Below the pieces are notes generated by a model. That model did not search any database. It had not been told where the DNA came from and saw only the letters and a list, made by a program, of their open reading frames with translations. The position numbers and the translations under genes were made by a program. This document shows positions 37,547 to 58,692 of a stretch of 64,000 bases of DNA, piece by piece. Each line of letters opens with the position of its first letter. Position 1 is the stretch's first letter. The stretch lies in contig JAJFTV010000088.1 of the NCBI GenBank assembly GCA_021372725.1, positions 1 through 64,000 of the forward strand. The letters run 5' to 3'. Source of the stretch: Chloroflexota bacterium. GTDB taxonomy: Bacteria > Chloroflexota > Anaerolineae > Anaerolineales > Anaerolineaceae.

Positions 37547-38218
37547 GTGGCAGCATCTGAGCCAAGAATTTTACTCATCGAAGGGAAACGTACAGATCAT
37601 CCCACCTTCTTTACCAGCTTGACTGGAAAGGGGTATATGGTTGATCTGGCCGTGAGCGGGAATAAAGGCTTATCTGCCATCGCTGAGCAAAAACCGGACA
37701 TCGTCATTGTGAATGCCGCATCCATGCGCACCAGCGGCCGCAGGATTTGTAAATCCATTCATGATTTTGATAAACATCTTTCAATAATTCTGATCATTGA
37801 AGCAGGCCAGGATTCATGCAAAGCGATTGATGCTGAAGTGATTCTTGTACGGCCTTTTACATTGCAGAAGCTCATCAACCGGATCAAACTGTTGGCGCCC
37901 CCTGAGAGAAATAACATGATGATTGCCGGCCCCATTCAATTTGATCCGGATAATAATTGGGTACGATGCCATGACCGGCAGACCAGTTTGACACCACGTC
38001 TTACCGAGTTGCTTCGTATGCTGATGGAACACCCTGGTGAAATAATCGAACGGTCAGAGTTGTTCAAACGTGTATGGGAAACCACTTATATGGGAGACAC
38101 CCGTACCATGGATGTTCATATCAGTTGGCTGCGACAGGCGCTTGAGGAAGATCCCCGCCACCCTCGCTATATCAAAACAATACGAGGTGTGGGATATCGT
38201 TTTGAAGCAAATTCCTGA
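37547..38218 (+). CDS. OmpR-family regulator with degenerate receiver
   Basis: 223 residues: a receiver-like domain (1-115) and an intact winged-helix domain with SLTPRLTELLRMLMEHPGE, RTMDVHISWLRQALEEDP and IKTIRGVGYRFE. The receiver lacks its chemistry. The phospho-acceptor Asp is Asn56 (IVIVNAAS), the acidic pair is reduced to Glu12, and the switch Lys is Arg102 (VRPF). It probably regulates without phosphorylation. No histidine kinase is adjacent. GTG start at 37547; the purine-rich site GGGGGAGAAAGG is about 12 bases away, so the start is not certain. Confidence 0.85.
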   Translation: MAASEPRILLIEGKRTDHPTFFTSLTGKGYMVDLAVSGNKGLSAIAEQKPDIVIVNAASMRTSGRRICKSIHDFDKHLSIILIIEAGQDSCKAIDAEVILVRPFTLQKLINRIKLLAPPERNNMMIAGPIQFDPDNNWVRCHDRQTSLTPRLTELLRMLMEHPGEIIERSELFKRVWETTYMGDTRTMDVHISWLRQALEEDPRHPRYIKTIRGVGYRFEANS

Positions 38219-50868: not shown

Positions 50869-53010
50869 TTATTCGTCAGGCTGCCCAAACTGATCGATGA
50901 TCTGTTGATACCGGGCAGCATCCACCGGATTGAGGGCAATGATCGTCTTCAATACGATCACCGCCGCTTCATTTTTTCCTTTTTTCATCAATTGTTCTGC
51001 GATCATGTTGAGCTGCTCGATGGTTTGAGCCTTATTTCCATGCTTGTGATACCAGTCTGCCAGTTGCTTGCGGATCTCCAATACCTCGGGAAGTTCTTCT
51101 GACAGGGATTTCAGGTATGGTTCAATCTGATCAGCTTTTTGATTTTCAATGAGAAAATGGAGGAAGCCATTCATTTTTTGTTTGGCAATGTCCCGGTTTC
51201 CCAGCCTGTAATTCAGAGCTGCCACACGCACATTGGCGGTGAGATTCACAGGATCGAGACTGAGGATTTGCTCATAAGTCTGGCAGGCTTTCTGGAATTG
51301 AAGATCCTGCATATAAAGATCGGCCTTCTGGTGAAACAGTTCAATGGACAATACCCTATTGGATGGTGAGGTCAGTGTCAGGCGGATTGCATCGGTCAGG
51401 TTCCCATGCGCCTTCTCAGGCTCGGCAAGCTGGTAATGGATTTCGGCCAGTTTACGGAGATGAACAACCGCCTGATCAATTCTTGATTGTTTTTTCAACA
51501 GCTCAATCAATCTGGTTCTGGTGGGTATATCCAAGGGGGTAAGCAGAACGGCCTGCTCGAGCGCCTGAACGGCTTGATCGGTTTGACCGCGTAATGCATA
51601 CAATTTGGCGGCAAGTTTGAACTTTTGAACCGCTTCCCCGGTATGCCCCTGTTTGCCCAGGTTTTCGCCGAGCAGTAATTGGGCGGGCAGCAGAGCGGGC
51701 CCATCCTCGATCATATAGAAAATTTCTTCCATGGCGCTGTGCGAATGATCATTCCCCTCCAGCTCTTTCACCTCTGCGAAACGCTGCACCAATGGGCTTC
51801 CGCCGGCAGCCAGAAGTTCCGCCAACAGCGTGTCATCTTTGTGCTGTGGCATGGCGATTTGTGAATGCAGCACTGCGAGGTGATCAAGCCAATCGGGGCG
51901 GTTGATTTCCTGTTCAATTGTCTCACACAGATTTTTCTGGAAGGTGGAGTCTGTCTCCCGGCAATAGGATTGGATCAAGGGTGTATATGCTCCTGGCTGC
52001 TTGTTCTGGTGGTCCGGGGAGGGGGTCGAGCTATCCGCCACCGCCAGCGCCTGCAAATAGGCGGCGGCTGCTTGCGGATAATTTGCCTGCGCGTAGTAAA
52101 TTTTGCCGATTAATAAGAAGGAAGCCAGAGCGTAATCAGGATATGCCCGTGTCTGTTTCAGGTGTGACAGAGCCTGGGCGGGTTCGCTCTCGGAAAGGAG
52201 AGTACCGAGCAAAAAGAGGATGGCAGGATTATTGATCCCGGCTTGCAGCAAAGCCAGCAGCTCTATTTCGCCCCAATCATTCATTCCCCGTGCAAGAAAG
52301 TCTGCCGCCCGATTCAAATGATTCAGCAAGTTGAGACATTCAGGATCCTCCGATAGATCCCTGAAACTTGTTTTGGGGCTGCCGGTTTCGGTTTCTGGAA
52401 CGGTCTGTTTTGTCTTCGAGGAGGATGCAAGCTCGAAAAACAGGGCAGCCAGGCCGGCCAGGGCCGTTTCGTGTGCCTGTTCCAACGGATCCTGTGATTT
52501 TTTCGCCGCTTGTGACGGTTCGGGCAGGGTTTGCGCAGGCTGCTCATCCACCAGTTTTGACAATTCAGAAAGATCCAGGTCACTGCTGTGGCGGATTGAT
52601 GTCAATTTGTGGCGGGCATCGGCATGGTCAGGATTTTGCTTAAGAATGTGCTGCAGGCAGCCGGCTGCCCGGAGGCTGTTTTCCTTTTTCAGGAAGAGTT
52701 CGGCAGAATTCTCATAAAACTGAATACTCTCCGCAACTTTTCCCTGTTGTTCGTAGATTAAGCCAATTTTTTCTATTGGAAAAGGATCATCCGGAGAAAG
52801 CCGAGCTGCGATCTCATAATAATGCCGGGAATTTTCCAGATCACCCATTTCAAGGAGGGAATGAGCCAGAAAAAAGGCTGCCCTGGGATGATCGGGGTTG
52901 TTCTCATAAGCCTGCCGGTAGAAGCCGGCTGCTTCTTCCCACGCCCCACTCCACGCCGCGGCATGTCCTTGCTGGAGGATATTCGGGGCGTTTGGATAAT
53001 TATTCGACAT
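50869..53010 (-). CDS. tetratricopeptide-repeat protein
   Basis: 713 residues, no signal peptide or membrane span. Many TPR units of about 34 residues: near the N-terminus (AWSGAWEEAAGFYRQAYENN, AAFFLAHSLLEMGDLENSRH) and again from about residue 440 to the end (AVQKFKLAAKLYALRGQTDQ, ACQTYEQILSLDPVNLTANV). The middle has an acidic, less ordered stretch. It is likely a cytosolic scaffold; partners unknown. It follows polA by 20 bases and is probably co-transcribed with it. Confidence 0.85.
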   Translation of the reverse strand: MSNNYPNAPNILQQGHAAAWSGAWEEAAGFYRQAYENNPDHPRAAFFLAHSLLEMGDLENSRHYYEIAARLSPDDPFPIEKIGLIYEQQGKVAESIQFYENSAELFLKKENSLRAAGCLQHILKQNPDHADARHKLTSIRHSSDLDLSELSKLVDEQPAQTLPEPSQAAKKSQDPLEQAHETALAGLAALFFELASSSKTKQTVPETETGSPKTSFRDLSEDPECLNLLNHLNRAADFLARGMNDWGEIELLALLQAGINNPAILFLLGTLLSESEPAQALSHLKQTRAYPDYALASFLLIGKIYYAQANYPQAAAAYLQALAVADSSTPSPDHQNKQPGAYTPLIQSYCRETDSTFQKNLCETIEQEINRPDWLDHLAVLHSQIAMPQHKDDTLLAELLAAGGSPLVQRFAEVKELEGNDHSHSAMEEIFYMIEDGPALLPAQLLLGENLGKQGHTGEAVQKFKLAAKLYALRGQTDQAVQALEQAVLLTPLDIPTRTRLIELLKKQSRIDQAVVHLRKLAEIHYQLAEPEKAHGNLTDAIRLTLTSPSNRVLSIELFHQKADLYMQDLQFQKACQTYEQILSLDPVNLTANVRVAALNYRLGNRDIAKQKMNGFLHFLIENQKADQIEPYLKSLSEELPEVLEIRKQLADWYHKHGNKAQTIEQLNMIAEQLMKKGKNEAAVIVLKTIIALNPVDAARYQQIIDQFGQPDE

Positions 53011-53030: not shown

Positions 53031-55835
53031 TTAGGCCGGGTCGATAACATGCATCACACCCCAGTTTTTGCCCGAACGGGCTTCAGTGGTAAGCGGGATG
53101 GCAAGCTGGTAAGCGGTTTCCATGGTTTTTTGTACGATGCGGGCGGTTTCGGGGAGTTCATCCTGACTGCATTCGAGGATCAGTTCGTCGTGCACCTGAA
53201 GGAGCAGCCTGGAATGCAGGCCCGCTTTTTGCAGTTCTGCGGGAAGATGCAGCATGGCGAGTTTGATGATGTCCGCAGCAGTCCCCTGGATGGGGGCATT
53301 GATGGCTTCACGTTCTTCACGGCGTCGCAAATTGAAATTGGCCTGTGAGCGAAGGTTGGGGAAATACCGCCTTCTGCCGAGCAGTGTTTCGACAAACCCC
53401 TGTTCTGCAGCAATCTGCCGCATTCCATCCAGATACTTTTTTACACCCGGAAATTCCTGGAAATATGCCTTGACAAAATCTTCCGACTCGGCCAGGGTCA
53501 AACCGGTTGAATTGCTCAATCCAAAGGCGCTCATCCCGTAAATCAGTCCAAAATTGATTGCCTTGGCATGCCGCCGCTGCTCTTTGGTCACCTCATTCAA
53601 CGGGATGGCATAGATGGCCGCCGCGGTGGTGGCGTGGATATCCTGATTTTTGCGGAATGCAGCCAGCATGGTTTCATCCCCTGACATGTGCGCCACGATT
53701 CGCAGCTCGATTTGTGAATAATCGACCGAAAGCAGAACCGAATCACCTTCAGCGATGAACCCGTGCCGCACCTGCTGCCCGATTTCTGTCCGGATGGGAA
53801 TGTTTTGCAAATTGGGATTGGACGATGCCAGCCGGCCGGTGACCGATCCGGTTTGATTGAAGGAGGTATGCACCCGGTTGGTATACGGGTTCACCTGGAG
53901 AGGAAGTGAATCGACATAGGTGGATTTGATCTTGGCCAGTTCACGGTATTCCAGCAGCCAGTCCACCACAGGATGTTTGCCGCTTAATTCATCCAGTACG
54001 GCAGCCGAGGTGGAGTAATGACCGCTGCTGGTCTTGTTCCGCTGGCCGGGTGTTTGCAAGCCCAGTGTTTCAAACAGGACTTTGGATAATTGTTGCGTTG
54101 AATTCAGATTGAATTTGTACCCGACCGATTCATATACCTGTTTTTCAATTTCGATCAGCCGCACAGAAAGTTCGGAAGACATTTTTTGGTAAAAAGGAAC
54201 ATCCAGGCTGATGCCTGCCATTTCCATATCCATCAGGATGGGCACCAGCGGCATTTCCAGTTCGGAAAACAATTTGTCTGCGTTCCGTTCTTTCATGCGG
54301 CGTTCAAGTTGCGGCATCAACAGCAGGGGAACCTGCGCATCCGCAGCGGCATACGGCGCAGCCTGCTCGACCGGCACGTCAGCCATGCTCAACTGTGCTT
54401 TACCTTTCCCGATCAGCTCTTCGATGTGCGTCATTTCCAGGCCGAGATACTGCACCGCCATATCCTTCAGGCCCAGGTGGTGTGACGCTGGGTCGACCAG
54501 CCATTCGGCGATCATCGTGTCGAAGGAGTAATGATGTAAAGGAAGCCCGTGCCTGGAAAGCACAAGTGCGTCATATTTCATGTTGTGACCGGCGAAAGTC
54601 TTTTTGGAGTCGTTGAATATGGGCTTCAGGGATTCAACCACCTGTTTCCGGTTTAACTGGCTTGCACCGGTTTTATGCCCGACCGGTATATAAAACCCTT
54701 CATGAGGATCCACAGCTACGGAAATGCCCACCAGGTCAGCCAGCATGGGGTCGGTGGATGTGGTTTCGGTATCAAAACTGATGGTGGGTGCACTGGAAAG
54801 TTTTTGAACCAGCGCTTCGAGTTTGTCAGGCTGATCCACGATGGTGAAATCCATGATCGATTTTGGTTCCACGCCGATCTGCCGGATCTCTTCACCGAAC
54901 AGGGAGGGCTGCGGACTGGCCGGGGTGAATTTTGGCTGCTGATTCTTTTCGGTCAGGGTATGCAGACGCTTCAGAAGCGAGTTGAATTCGAGCTCTTTGA
55001 AGATTTTTTCCACCGCCGGAATATCCATATCATCGGTGCGTGCATCCTCCAGGTTCAGGCTTACCTTGACGCCGGTTTGAATTTGGGCCAACTGCCGGCT
55101 CAAATTTGCGTTCTCCCGCCCGGCTTCCAAAAGATTTTTTACCCGTTTGGGCAGGTCTTCCAGGTGGGCATAAATTTCTTCCAGATCATTGTATTTTTCA
55201 AACAGGGATACAGCGGTTTTCTGCCCGATCCCCGAAACACCCGGAATATTGTCCGAGGTATCACCGACCAGGGCTTTGTAATCAACTACCTGCTCCGGGC
55301 GAACACCCAGGTAAGCCTTGACATCTTTGGCAGTGTAATCCTGCGAGTCGGCAAGCGATTTCCCTGGCAGGCTGACAATGACCCGGTCATTGACCAGTTG
55401 AAGCAAATCGCGGTCGCCGGTGATGATTTTCACGCCAAAACCCTGCTGCACTGCATAAACGGCGATGCTGCCCAGCACGTCATCCGCTTCGTAACCTTCC
55501 ACTTCCAGGCGCGGAAATTTAAAGGCGTCAATCAACTGCTTGATCCAGGGTATTTGAGTGCGCAGATCATCCGGCATTTTTGCCCGGGTGGCTTTGTAAT
55601 CACCAAACAGCTCGTTTCGGAATGTTTTTCCGGTATCAAAGGTCACTGCAAGGTATTCAGGGTGTTCCTGCTCCAGAAGACGGAGCAGCGAACTTGTAAA
55701 ACCAAAGGTTCCGGCAGTAGGAATACCGCTGCTGGTGGTAAAACCTGTCCCGCTGCCGGCTGTGAGTGCAAAATAGGTTCGATAAGCCAGTGCATGGCCG
55801 TCGATTAAATACAATATCGGAGGCATATTATCCAT
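53031..55835 (-). CDS. polA: DNA polymerase I
   Basis: 934 residues with all three activities. 5'-3' exonuclease: YLIDGHALAYRTYFAL and VEGYEADDVLGSIA. 3'-5' proofreading: SFDTETTSTDP (Exo I), AGHNMKYDALVL (Exo II) and YAAADAQVPLLL (Exo III), so editing residues are kept, unlike in Taq. Polymerase: SVDYSQIELRIVAHM (motif A), KAINFGLIYGMSAFGLS (motif B, Phe at the dNTP-selecting position) and LLQVHDELILE (motif C). Starts at 55835 and 55826 are both possible around GGAGA. Part of an operon with the acidic protein upstream and the TPR protein downstream. Confidence 0.96.
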   Translation of the reverse strand: MDNMPPILYLIDGHALAYRTYFALTAGSGTGFTTSSGIPTAGTFGFTSSLLRLLEQEHPEYLAVTFDTGKTFRNELFGDYKATRAKMPDDLRTQIPWIKQLIDAFKFPRLEVEGYEADDVLGSIAVYAVQQGFGVKIITGDRDLLQLVNDRVIVSLPGKSLADSQDYTAKDVKAYLGVRPEQVVDYKALVGDTSDNIPGVSGIGQKTAVSLFEKYNDLEEIYAHLEDLPKRVKNLLEAGRENANLSRQLAQIQTGVKVSLNLEDARTDDMDIPAVEKIFKELEFNSLLKRLHTLTEKNQQPKFTPASPQPSLFGEEIRQIGVEPKSIMDFTIVDQPDKLEALVQKLSSAPTISFDTETTSTDPMLADLVGISVAVDPHEGFYIPVGHKTGASQLNRKQVVESLKPIFNDSKKTFAGHNMKYDALVLSRHGLPLHHYSFDTMIAEWLVDPASHHLGLKDMAVQYLGLEMTHIEELIGKGKAQLSMADVPVEQAAPYAAADAQVPLLLMPQLERRMKERNADKLFSELEMPLVPILMDMEMAGISLDVPFYQKMSSELSVRLIEIEKQVYESVGYKFNLNSTQQLSKVLFETLGLQTPGQRNKTSSGHYSTSAAVLDELSGKHPVVDWLLEYRELAKIKSTYVDSLPLQVNPYTNRVHTSFNQTGSVTGRLASSNPNLQNIPIRTEIGQQVRHGFIAEGDSVLLSVDYSQIELRIVAHMSGDETMLAAFRKNQDIHATTAAAIYAIPLNEVTKEQRRHAKAINFGLIYGMSAFGLSNSTGLTLAESEDFVKAYFQEFPGVKKYLDGMRQIAAEQGFVETLLGRRRYFPNLRSQANFNLRRREEREAINAPIQGTAADIIKLAMLHLPAELQKAGLHSRLLLQVHDELILECSQDELPETARIVQKTMETAYQLAIPLTTEARSGKNWGVMHVIDPA

Positions 55836-55887
55836 TCTCCATTAATGCCAGGTATTATTGTTCATACGCCAATAATGCCAGGGTTTA

Positions 55888-58692
55888 TCAGCCATTCCCC
55901 GTCGACAATGGTTTGCGGTTTTTTTGAATGAAGTCGTCCAGAAATTCGGCAGGCGGCGGGTTACTGCCTGCAACGACAAGGTATCCCTTTGCCCAGAAAT
56001 TACCGTCCTGACTGAGGTTCTTCAGATCAGGAAATTCTTCAAAGATGCGCAAGGAAATCTGCTGGCGGATTTTTCGGACAATGGATCCCTGGGATGTTCC
56101 TGCCGGTACACGCACGGTCCATTGCAGGTAAGTAGGCTGAACCAAAATGTTTTCGAACTGCCAGCCAAAAACCCGTGCCAGACGCGGCAGCCATTCACGG
56201 ATTTTTTCCGCGATAGGATTTGTCAGGCTGTACTCGCCAAGCTCCGGCACAAGGATGCAGGTATACATGGGTTGGTCAAAACCCAGATTAACCGGATCCA
56301 GGCTTGAATCGGCCAGCATATCAACCAAACCATCCCCTGGTTGATCGGCTGTAATCCATGACTGGGGTGTAGGGGTGGCTTCCAATGTATCTGCATTTTC
56401 TGCTTCCGTTTCCCAGGGAAACAGATCATCGTTGAGGATGGCGTCCAGACTTTCAGATTCGACCGCCCTGGAGGCTGCCTCGCTGACAGATGGAAGCACC
56501 TTTTCTGATGCTGTGCCGTCATCCGCGTCGATTAATGCATTGGAGATGATCTTGCGCAGATCCATTTCGGTTTGTAGCGTATCCGGTTGTTCATCTTCAT
56601 TAAGTGAAGTGCGTGAAGATAATTCTTCATCACTTGCCTGACTGTCGGCATCCAGCCGGGGAGCTACCCCAGGTTGCGCTTCAGGTTCAGCCGGTGGAGG
56701 AACCTGAACAGCCGTCGCAAGACGTTCCTGCATGGCGATGATCATTTGATTGTAATCTTCGTCGATATCGACTGGTTTTAATGATTCTGCCGGCGGTAGA
56801 ACACCAGACTCCTCATCCTTCTCAATTTCAATGTCTACCTCCGGGTGGGAATCTGCTTCCTTTGGAAGGACTTCGTTTTCAGGGAAGGCAGCCGGTTCTT
56901 CTTCCATTGTTTCTCCGGCCTCCAGAGGTTCTGCTGACAGCGGGAGATTGGTTTCAGGGGTGTCAGGTGTTTCATCCATGGGAATGAATTCATCGATCTT
57001 ATCCAGCGATTCCAATGGTTCGATGGCCTCTCCAGACCGGTTAAAGTAATCTTCAAAGAATGCGCTGGCATCCTGATCCTGATCGATGGTATCCAACGCA
57101 TTATCCTGTGACAACTCTTTTAGAAAATCCGAGCTTTCATCCAAAAAAATAATGTCTTCCCTCTCTGTTTCCTGAAGATTTGTTGGCGGTTGATCCATTT
57201 GCTGATCGGATAACTGCTGACCGTCGGGAGCGGGGATTTGGTCTACGGCCTGGATCTCTTCAAGACTGGTGGCCGGTGGGATACCCTCAACGAGAGTCTC
57301 GGGCGGTGCAATGGACTCTTCCTCAATGCTTTCCGCCATTGTTTCATCTTCAACCTGCAATGGAACGGTATATCTCCATTGCTTCGATTTATTCGCCGGT
57401 TTCTGGTTTTTTAACCTCTTCCGTTTGTAAGCCATTACATCCGTATAATCCGGTTTCCAACCAGAATACTGCTCTCTGAACCGGTCGGTGAATTCCGGAC
57501 TTGTCATGGCGGGTTCGGTTTTTGTTATTCCCGAAAAAGATGGTTTCGAAATATTGACACTTGCAAGCGATGAAAGCTCCTCCTCTGTCAGATGGAACAA
57601 CTTTCCAAAGGCTGGTTTGCTGATTTTCATCCGGCCATAACCCGCTTTGGGTATCGTGACAGTCTCATGGGCCGTTTCTTCATCCGATGCAGATTTATAT
57701 CCCTCCATGCTTGTTTCCTCCTGGGTAACCGGTTGAGGTTTTTCCAATTCATCCGTTCCGCTGTCACCGGTTGAATCAAGTAGTTTGTCGTTTACATCTT
57801 CCTGGATCTCACGATTCTCAAAAACCCACCCGTCCGTTTCTGTAAATAAATCAAACTGGTTCCCGGCATCGACCGGTTGGCCTATCAAATCATTGACCAT
57901 TACCTGCGGTGCCTCCCCTGCATCCAACACACCCCTTTCCTGGATTGGGACAGGGATAGGTTCTTCCTCCACTTCATCCGTTTCAGGGAAGGTGACCTGT
58001 TCTTCATCAATCGACAATTGGGCAGATGCCGCGCGGGTCTGGTTGCGGATCTCGCTCAAGGGATGCCGGGAGTAGTTAATGGTGCATAAAACCAGTGAAC
58101 CGGATATGGTGCTGACATAGAGCAGGAATTTTTCCTGTTTTGGCCCAAGCCTTACATAACGTGCCATATCCATGGCGTTCCCGCCCTTTTGGGCCTCACC
58201 GACAGCTCTTTCAATCTCTCTTAGGTCGGCTTTTGATAATTCACCTCTCCGCTTCCAGGCCCGGCTGTCTTTCAGAATCAGGATCGCATGATAATCTCCC
58301 TGCAACAGGTGATCAGACAGCCAGTCGTCGATGGTACTCTGATCCTCTTTTGTAGAAGAAGCAGCAGATGAATCGATCAATGATGCTTCAAGCTCTGGTT
58401 CATCAGGCTCAGTTGAATCTGCAATTTCTGATTCAGACAGTTCCGGGCTTTCGGTATCCATCCTGGGTTCGGTGCTGTCGGAAACCTCGGATGGAAATTC
58501 TTCTAACTGGTCTGATGTTTCCATCTGATTAGGTGCAGTTTGATCATCCGTATCTTCGGGCATTTCGCTCAAAGCCGGGATCACAGGCGACTCGTCATCG
58601 TCTGAAATCCCGGACAGGAATTCCTTAAATTGCTCATCCGATTTTTTGTCATCGTCATTCGAGGGAGGGAATTGGTTAAATTCTTCGTTCAT
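55888..58692 (-). CDS. acidic protein with roadblock-like and Y1-transposase-like domains
   Basis: 934 residues, very rich in Glu/Asp/Ser/Pro and probably mostly disordered. Two parts look folded. Residues about 121-228 (DYHAILILKDSRAWKRRGEL, FLLYVSTISGSLVLCTI) resemble a roadblock/LC7 fold. Residues about 807-926 align by eye with IS200/IS605 TnpA: VRVPAGTSQGSIVRKIRQQI, FEEFPDLKNL, GNFWAKGYLVVAGSN and FLDDFIQKNR. The HUH metal histidines are Tyr855 and Gln857, and the catalytic Tyr is Phe921, so it cannot act as a transposase. It is first in an operon with polA. Function unknown; DNA or RNA hairpin binding is a guess. Confidence 0.72.
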   Translation of the reverse strand: MNEEFNQFPPSNDDDKKSDEQFKEFLSGISDDDESPVIPALSEMPEDTDDQTAPNQMETSDQLEEFPSEVSDSTEPRMDTESPELSESEIADSTEPDEPELEASLIDSSAASSTKEDQSTIDDWLSDHLLQGDYHAILILKDSRAWKRRGELSKADLREIERAVGEAQKGGNAMDMARYVRLGPKQEKFLLYVSTISGSLVLCTINYSRHPLSEIRNQTRAASAQLSIDEEQVTFPETDEVEEEPIPVPIQERGVLDAGEAPQVMVNDLIGQPVDAGNQFDLFTETDGWVFENREIQEDVNDKLLDSTGDSGTDELEKPQPVTQEETSMEGYKSASDEETAHETVTIPKAGYGRMKISKPAFGKLFHLTEEELSSLASVNISKPSFSGITKTEPAMTSPEFTDRFREQYSGWKPDYTDVMAYKRKRLKNQKPANKSKQWRYTVPLQVEDETMAESIEEESIAPPETLVEGIPPATSLEEIQAVDQIPAPDGQQLSDQQMDQPPTNLQETEREDIIFLDESSDFLKELSQDNALDTIDQDQDASAFFEDYFNRSGEAIEPLESLDKIDEFIPMDETPDTPETNLPLSAEPLEAGETMEEEPAAFPENEVLPKEADSHPEVDIEIEKDEESGVLPPAESLKPVDIDEDYNQMIIAMQERLATAVQVPPPAEPEAQPGVAPRLDADSQASDEELSSRTSLNEDEQPDTLQTEMDLRKIISNALIDADDGTASEKVLPSVSEAASRAVESESLDAILNDDLFPWETEAENADTLEATPTPQSWITADQPGDGLVDMLADSSLDPVNLGFDQPMYTCILVPELGEYSLTNPIAEKIREWLPRLARVFGWQFENILVQPTYLQWTVRVPAGTSQGSIVRKIRQQISLRIFEEFPDLKNLSQDGNFWAKGYLVVAGSNPPPAEFLDDFIQKNRKPLSTGNG

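Follow-up and report, generated by a model that had tools for sequence, protein, structure and literature searches.

The TnpA transposases of IS200/IS605 elements such as IS608 and ISDra2 (Pfam PF01797) work at the replication fork and on lagging-strand ssDNA (PMC6006769). Chromosomal, domesticated Y1 proteins with extra domains are known as TnpAREP/RAYT, and five of their subclasses have REP sequences on either side (PMC6006769). The 2018 census of Y1 proteins retained only those with both HUH and Tyr motifs (PMC6006769), and because both had to be intact, a class of dead Y1 proteins would have been filtered out. TldR is comparable by analogy only, as a regulator that arose from an enzyme related to IS200/IS605 through loss of catalysis. 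TldR proteins are nuclease-dead relatives of TnpB, and this descent and an unrelated protein fold set them apart from the family described here, as does their action as RNA-guided transcription factors (PMC13418256). For the N-terminal part of that family, the closest systems are those built on the roadblock/LC7 protein MglB; in Myxococcus, RomR connects the MglA/MglB module with a response regulator (PMC3441718).

The window analysed here is a stretch of 64,000 nucleotides from a Chloroflexota bacterium of the Anaerolineaceae, and the gene of interest (Table 1) encodes a protein with what we call a dead TnpA domain at its C-terminus. It resembles IS200/IS605 TnpA in fold, domain length, secondary-structure order and the conserved Trp900, but it has lost the HUH His residues, the nucleophilic Tyr and the basic patch, is fused to long N-terminal modules, lies beside polA, and appears to be immobile. 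Whereas TnpAREP/RAYT members of the census keep HUH and Tyr, the dead-TnpA family has lost catalysis, and the surroundings of the gene showed no REP-like array. The MglB-type roadblock fold is common to this family and the MglA/MglB systems; here it is joined to a receiver (REC) domain, with TnpA as the C-terminal module. No fusion of REC or roadblock to a Y1 domain was found in the literature searched, to which subscription papers may add.

Table 1 Features of the dead-TnpA gene and its downstream neighbours in the window.
Feature	Position	Strand	Basis or remark
Whole dead-TnpA gene, 934 aa	55888..58692	(-)	ORF; acidic N-terminus, roadblock, acidic linker, dead TnpA domain
Residues 1-110, acidic N-terminus, 33% Asp+Glu	58363..58692	(-)	Composition; position of REC in relatives
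Residues 111-232, roadblock/LC7 (MglB-like) domain	57997..58362	(-)	Family profile, homologue model, Foldseek
Residues 233-806, unusually long acidic linker	56275..57996	(-)	Composition
Residues 807-934, Y1 (IS200/IS605 TnpA) domain without HUH and Tyr	55891..56274	(-)	Pfam, phmmer, AlphaFold2/Foldseek, family profile
HUH position, Tyr855-Leu856-Gln857	56122..56130	(-)	Alignment; codons read from sequence
Nucleophilic Tyr position, Phe921	55930..55932	(-)	Alignment; codon read from sequence
Junction between gene and polA, 52 bp	55836..55887	(-)	Hairpin conserved in family f12 is absent
polA, DNA polymerase I, conserved downstream neighbour	53031..55835	(-)	Pfam; linkage in 124/142
TPR-repeat protein gene	50869..53010	(-)	After polA; kept in many relatives too

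Identity of the C-terminal domain

The Pfam model Y1_Tnp (PF01797, curated cut-off 23 bits) matches residues 809-923 of the whole protein with E=1.2e-8 and 35.6 bits, and the last 150 aa with E=4.9e-10 and 40 bits. The NCBIfam IS200 transposase model also matches, under its equivalog cut-off, as expected for a divergent member. Using the single window sequence, phmmer finds the PDB TnpA chains 2ec2 and 2f4f at E ~1e-4, and the ISDra2 structure aligns too; a profile of the family searched against the PDB matches 2ec2 at E=2.6e-20. An AlphaFold2 model of the domain, made with 59 homologues as input (pLDDT 87), has the strand and helix order of TnpA, beta-alpha-beta-beta-alpha-beta-alpha, and all 30 Foldseek matches with E<0.001 are structures of IS200/IS605 TnpA or REP-associated transposases. 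The identity of residues 807-934 as a Y1 domain whose catalytic residues have been lost is confirmed by these data. In the phmmer alignment, the DHIH of TnpA that contains the HUH motif corresponds to TYLQ in the window protein, and the catalytic Tyr to Phe. At the metal-ligand position four residues after the Tyr, the window has Asn925 and most relatives have Thr; class 2 TnpA has Asn here (PMC6006769).

An earlier note, made from the sequence of the window, had read a TnpA layout in these residues and proposed profile and structure comparisons, both of which agree with it. Alignment and codons likewise uphold its reading of Tyr855 and Gln857 in place of the two HUH His residues and Phe921 in place of the nucleophile. 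The surroundings that it described are also as stated: the long acidic region before the domain is a linker of 574 aa with 24% Asp+Glu and a net charge of -99, the N-terminal roadblock-like domain is real, and polA starts 52 bp downstream. Its claim that all catalytic residues are lost holds for the window protein but, as regards the Tyr, not for the family as a whole.

An Anaerolineales family beside polA

Of 101 genomes searched, the window's own included, 64 have a match to the domain. There is nearly always one match per genome, mostly C-terminal in a longer protein of about 310-1130 aa, and no second Y1 domain was found in the window's genome. Across 400 Chloroflexota genomes, those stop-free matches in frames of >300 aa that are among the matches listed come from the same order, while most other Y1 matches sit in short frames about as long as an ordinary TnpA. 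Because the diversity of the 59-row alignment was too great for scanning named genomes, 16 closer rows served as query there; the scan gave 159 related stretches, of which 80 were kept, with titles naming nearly always Anaerolineae, Anaerolineales, Anaerolinea or Chloroflexi. Due to this choice of query, the named-genome set is skewed to close relatives with FWA[PKT]GYL. The dead-TnpA family was not found outside Anaerolineales in these searches.

Among 142 sampled Anaerolineales proteins, H-x-H is absent from 141, and the sole survivor has Phe at the Tyr site, so that no protein keeps both. The Tyr site itself is Tyr in 74 of the proteins and Phe in 63. By comparison, nearly all of 22 insertion-sequence-type TnpA copies from Chloroflexota, taken as a control, have H-V/I-H, Tyr and the Gln four residues after it at the same columns. 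In a tree, a branch with 100/100 support splits all 22 active-type copies from all family members, and this single branch is consistent with one capture. For close pairs, dN/dS is 0.016-0.064 (about 0.02-0.06), and the family is under strong purifying selection. As the cutting residues are lost and selection is strong, a selfish enzyme appears to have turned into a host protein. In genomes labelled f12 we also see free-standing dead TnpA paralogues of about 145-220 aa (L040, L264-L269) that lack REC and roadblock; they form one derived clade within the polA-linked family, a secondary duplication.

In 55/62 and 69/80 cases, together 124/142, polA follows the gene on the same strand at a distance of no more than 700 bp. 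For 14 relatives without a good match, inspection of the region upstream of polA gave no recognisable homologue in 12; L229 has a short N-terminal match only, and in L220 the contig ends too near to tell. This linkage could reflect conserved gene order only. In f12, a conserved ORF of about 196-213 aa lies upstream of the dead-TnpA gene (L150:4204-4794, L164:4127-4720, L180:4106-4747), with no Pfam match for the L150 copy that was searched. Overall, the survey of relatives for catalytic loss and polA linkage that the earlier note had called for supports the co-option that it suggested: the family is confined in these searches to one order, usually has one copy per genome, is held by purifying selection and polA synteny, and joins the active-type copies through a single branch.

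Fused modules and domain surface

The usual order in relatives is REC, MglB-like roadblock, a Pro/Glu-rich linker with short motifs, and dead TnpA, and 117 of the 134 relatives with a recognisable N-terminus start in the REC part. This REC has a Pfam match in 98/119 rows, matches PDB response regulators at E=1.6e-16, and was modelled in a homologue. Conservation is 99% for its acceptor Asp and 81% for its Lys, and the acidic pair is mostly lost, which marks it as an atypical receiver. The window's protein gives no REC match, the sole one in the window being at 37547-38218, and no separate REC gene lies upstream of the gene; the protein has lost this module. For the roadblock domain the Pfam Robl_LC7 match is weak, but a PDB search with the family profile finds MglB at E=1.6e-7, and the homologue model has the fold alpha-beta-beta-alpha-beta-beta-beta-alpha, with RagA/C as best Foldseek match. 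No stand-alone MglA/Rag-type GTPase partner was recognised in the window's genome, where three matches to the Arf model sit in larger frames of 306-601 aa.

Two motifs recur in linkers that are otherwise poorly alignable. L..hP[SPA]P[DNE]P occurs in 52/130 proteins against 0.1 in shuffles, and [DE]T[RQ]P, which we take to resemble Thr-phosphorylation/FHA-type motifs, in 63/130 against 3.5, with kinship of the sequences uncontrolled in both comparisons. Neither motif is present in the window's protein, and this, with the lack of REC and the very long acidic linker, makes it a divergent member of the family. A beta-clamp binding motif was also sought in the linkers, and is unenriched (1/133 against 4.3 in shuffles). 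Judged from its sequence context, the dead TnpA domain is a domesticated transposase that presumably serves as the C-terminal module of a regulator or scaffold.

The domain has kept its fold, but with a rebuilt face. Basic positions of active-type TnpA have been lost in the family at 818-821 (the KYRRK region), 884, 902 and 920, retained at R817 (Glu in the window), R873, R876 and R926, and gained at 845, 852, 882, 889 and 928; the window copy is without several of the gained residues (Q845, Q852, D889, P928). Newly and strongly conserved are W834, W858, F899-W-A-P-G-Y-L (FWAPGYL) and R926-x-x-Q-G (RxxQG). The median net charge of the domain is +6.5 for active-type copies and +3 for the family, with +2 in the window. 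As the KYRRK patch is lost and other basic residues are gained, unchanged hairpin binding is doubtful, and the domain may still bind nucleic acid in some form. This weakens the hairpin binder that the earlier note had offered as an example of a new function. The gained positions suggest that the family domain may bind nucleic acid; the lost patch, the lower charge and the gained residues missing from the window copy count against it.

Possible roles and the junction with polA

Our best guess, held with middling confidence, is that the protein is a structure-specific nucleic-acid-binding or fork-associated dimeric adaptor or regulator tied to polA. After one capture of a TnpA domain and mostly vertical descent, the dead domain would still form TnpA-like dimers, as roadblock domains dimerise too, and the dimer would be a structure-specific nucleic-acid or fork-associated module with an altered surface, tuned by REC, roadblock and the flexible linker. 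Given the lagging-strand ssDNA on which TnpA enzymes naturally act, and polA as the fixed neighbour, the likely output would be regulation of polA expression or of gap or lagging-strand processing that depends on Pol I. The lost basic positions, the lower charge, the lack of beta-clamp motif enrichment and the chance that the polA linkage is mere gene order speak against this proposal. A bolder form of it would define a new class of regulator, and we regard it as rather doubtful: a REC-roadblock protein would read nucleic acid through a dead HUH transposase dimer as its output and so link some cellular signal to lagging-strand repair or DNA polymerase I. In this family a transposase fold that has shed its chemistry is put to use again and persists in many families of one order, which makes for a clean case open to testing; it may also supply a new regulator of a core replication and repair gene in the poorly studied Chloroflexota.

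The main rival keeps the dead TnpA domain off nucleic acid altogether: within a signalling scaffold it would serve only for dimerisation or protein interaction, and partners would bind the linker motifs and the roadblock domain. Loss of the KYRRK patch with a fall in net charge, the frequency of the linker motifs far above shuffles, and the new conserved Trp, FWAPGYL and RxxQG residues all agree with such a scaffold, but the stable polA linkage and the retained and gained basic positions do not, and we consider it plausible while short of probable. A mobile element that is or lately was active, or a pseudogene in decay, would account for the TnpA homology, but either is highly improbable given that HUH and Tyr are gone, that the only Y1 match in the genome is the C-terminal domain of a long protein beside polA, and that relatives have long intact frames under strong selection in a conserved position.

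A second rival is an autoregulator acting at the gene-polA junction, where the polA promoter would overlap a palindrome or hairpin to which the TnpA dimer binds. This is suggested by f12, where the junction holds a hairpin CGCAGAG-TATAAT-n-CTCTGCG with the -10 box in its loop, T-runs after it, and paired changes in the arms such as GCGGAG/CTCCGC. Among 57 named-locus junctions that reach 30 bp or more, 26 have the hairpin arms (22 of these with TATAAT), against 0/129 regions upstream of the dead-TnpA gene. Since the TATAAT string was used to collect the aligned junction sequences, part of its conservation there stems from that choice. Of the f12 genomes searched, 6/8 contain the exact form, each a single time; it is found in 0/4 others, and a looser arm pattern gives a few further matches per genome. 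An autoregulator is nonetheless unlikely, as the window and most other families have the protein but not the hairpin, and as GC-rich arms with a T-run would equally fit an intrinsic terminator, or a promoter, without TnpA. The f12 hairpin may combine a promoter with an enclosing operator or terminator. That it is a REP-like multi-copy element seems unlikely, since the exact junction form is found at most once per genome among those searched. One f12 junction with the TATAAT-loop hairpin between the dead-TnpA gene and polA is at L150:6526. The corresponding junction of the window carries two near-identical direct copies, CCTGGCATTAWTGG.
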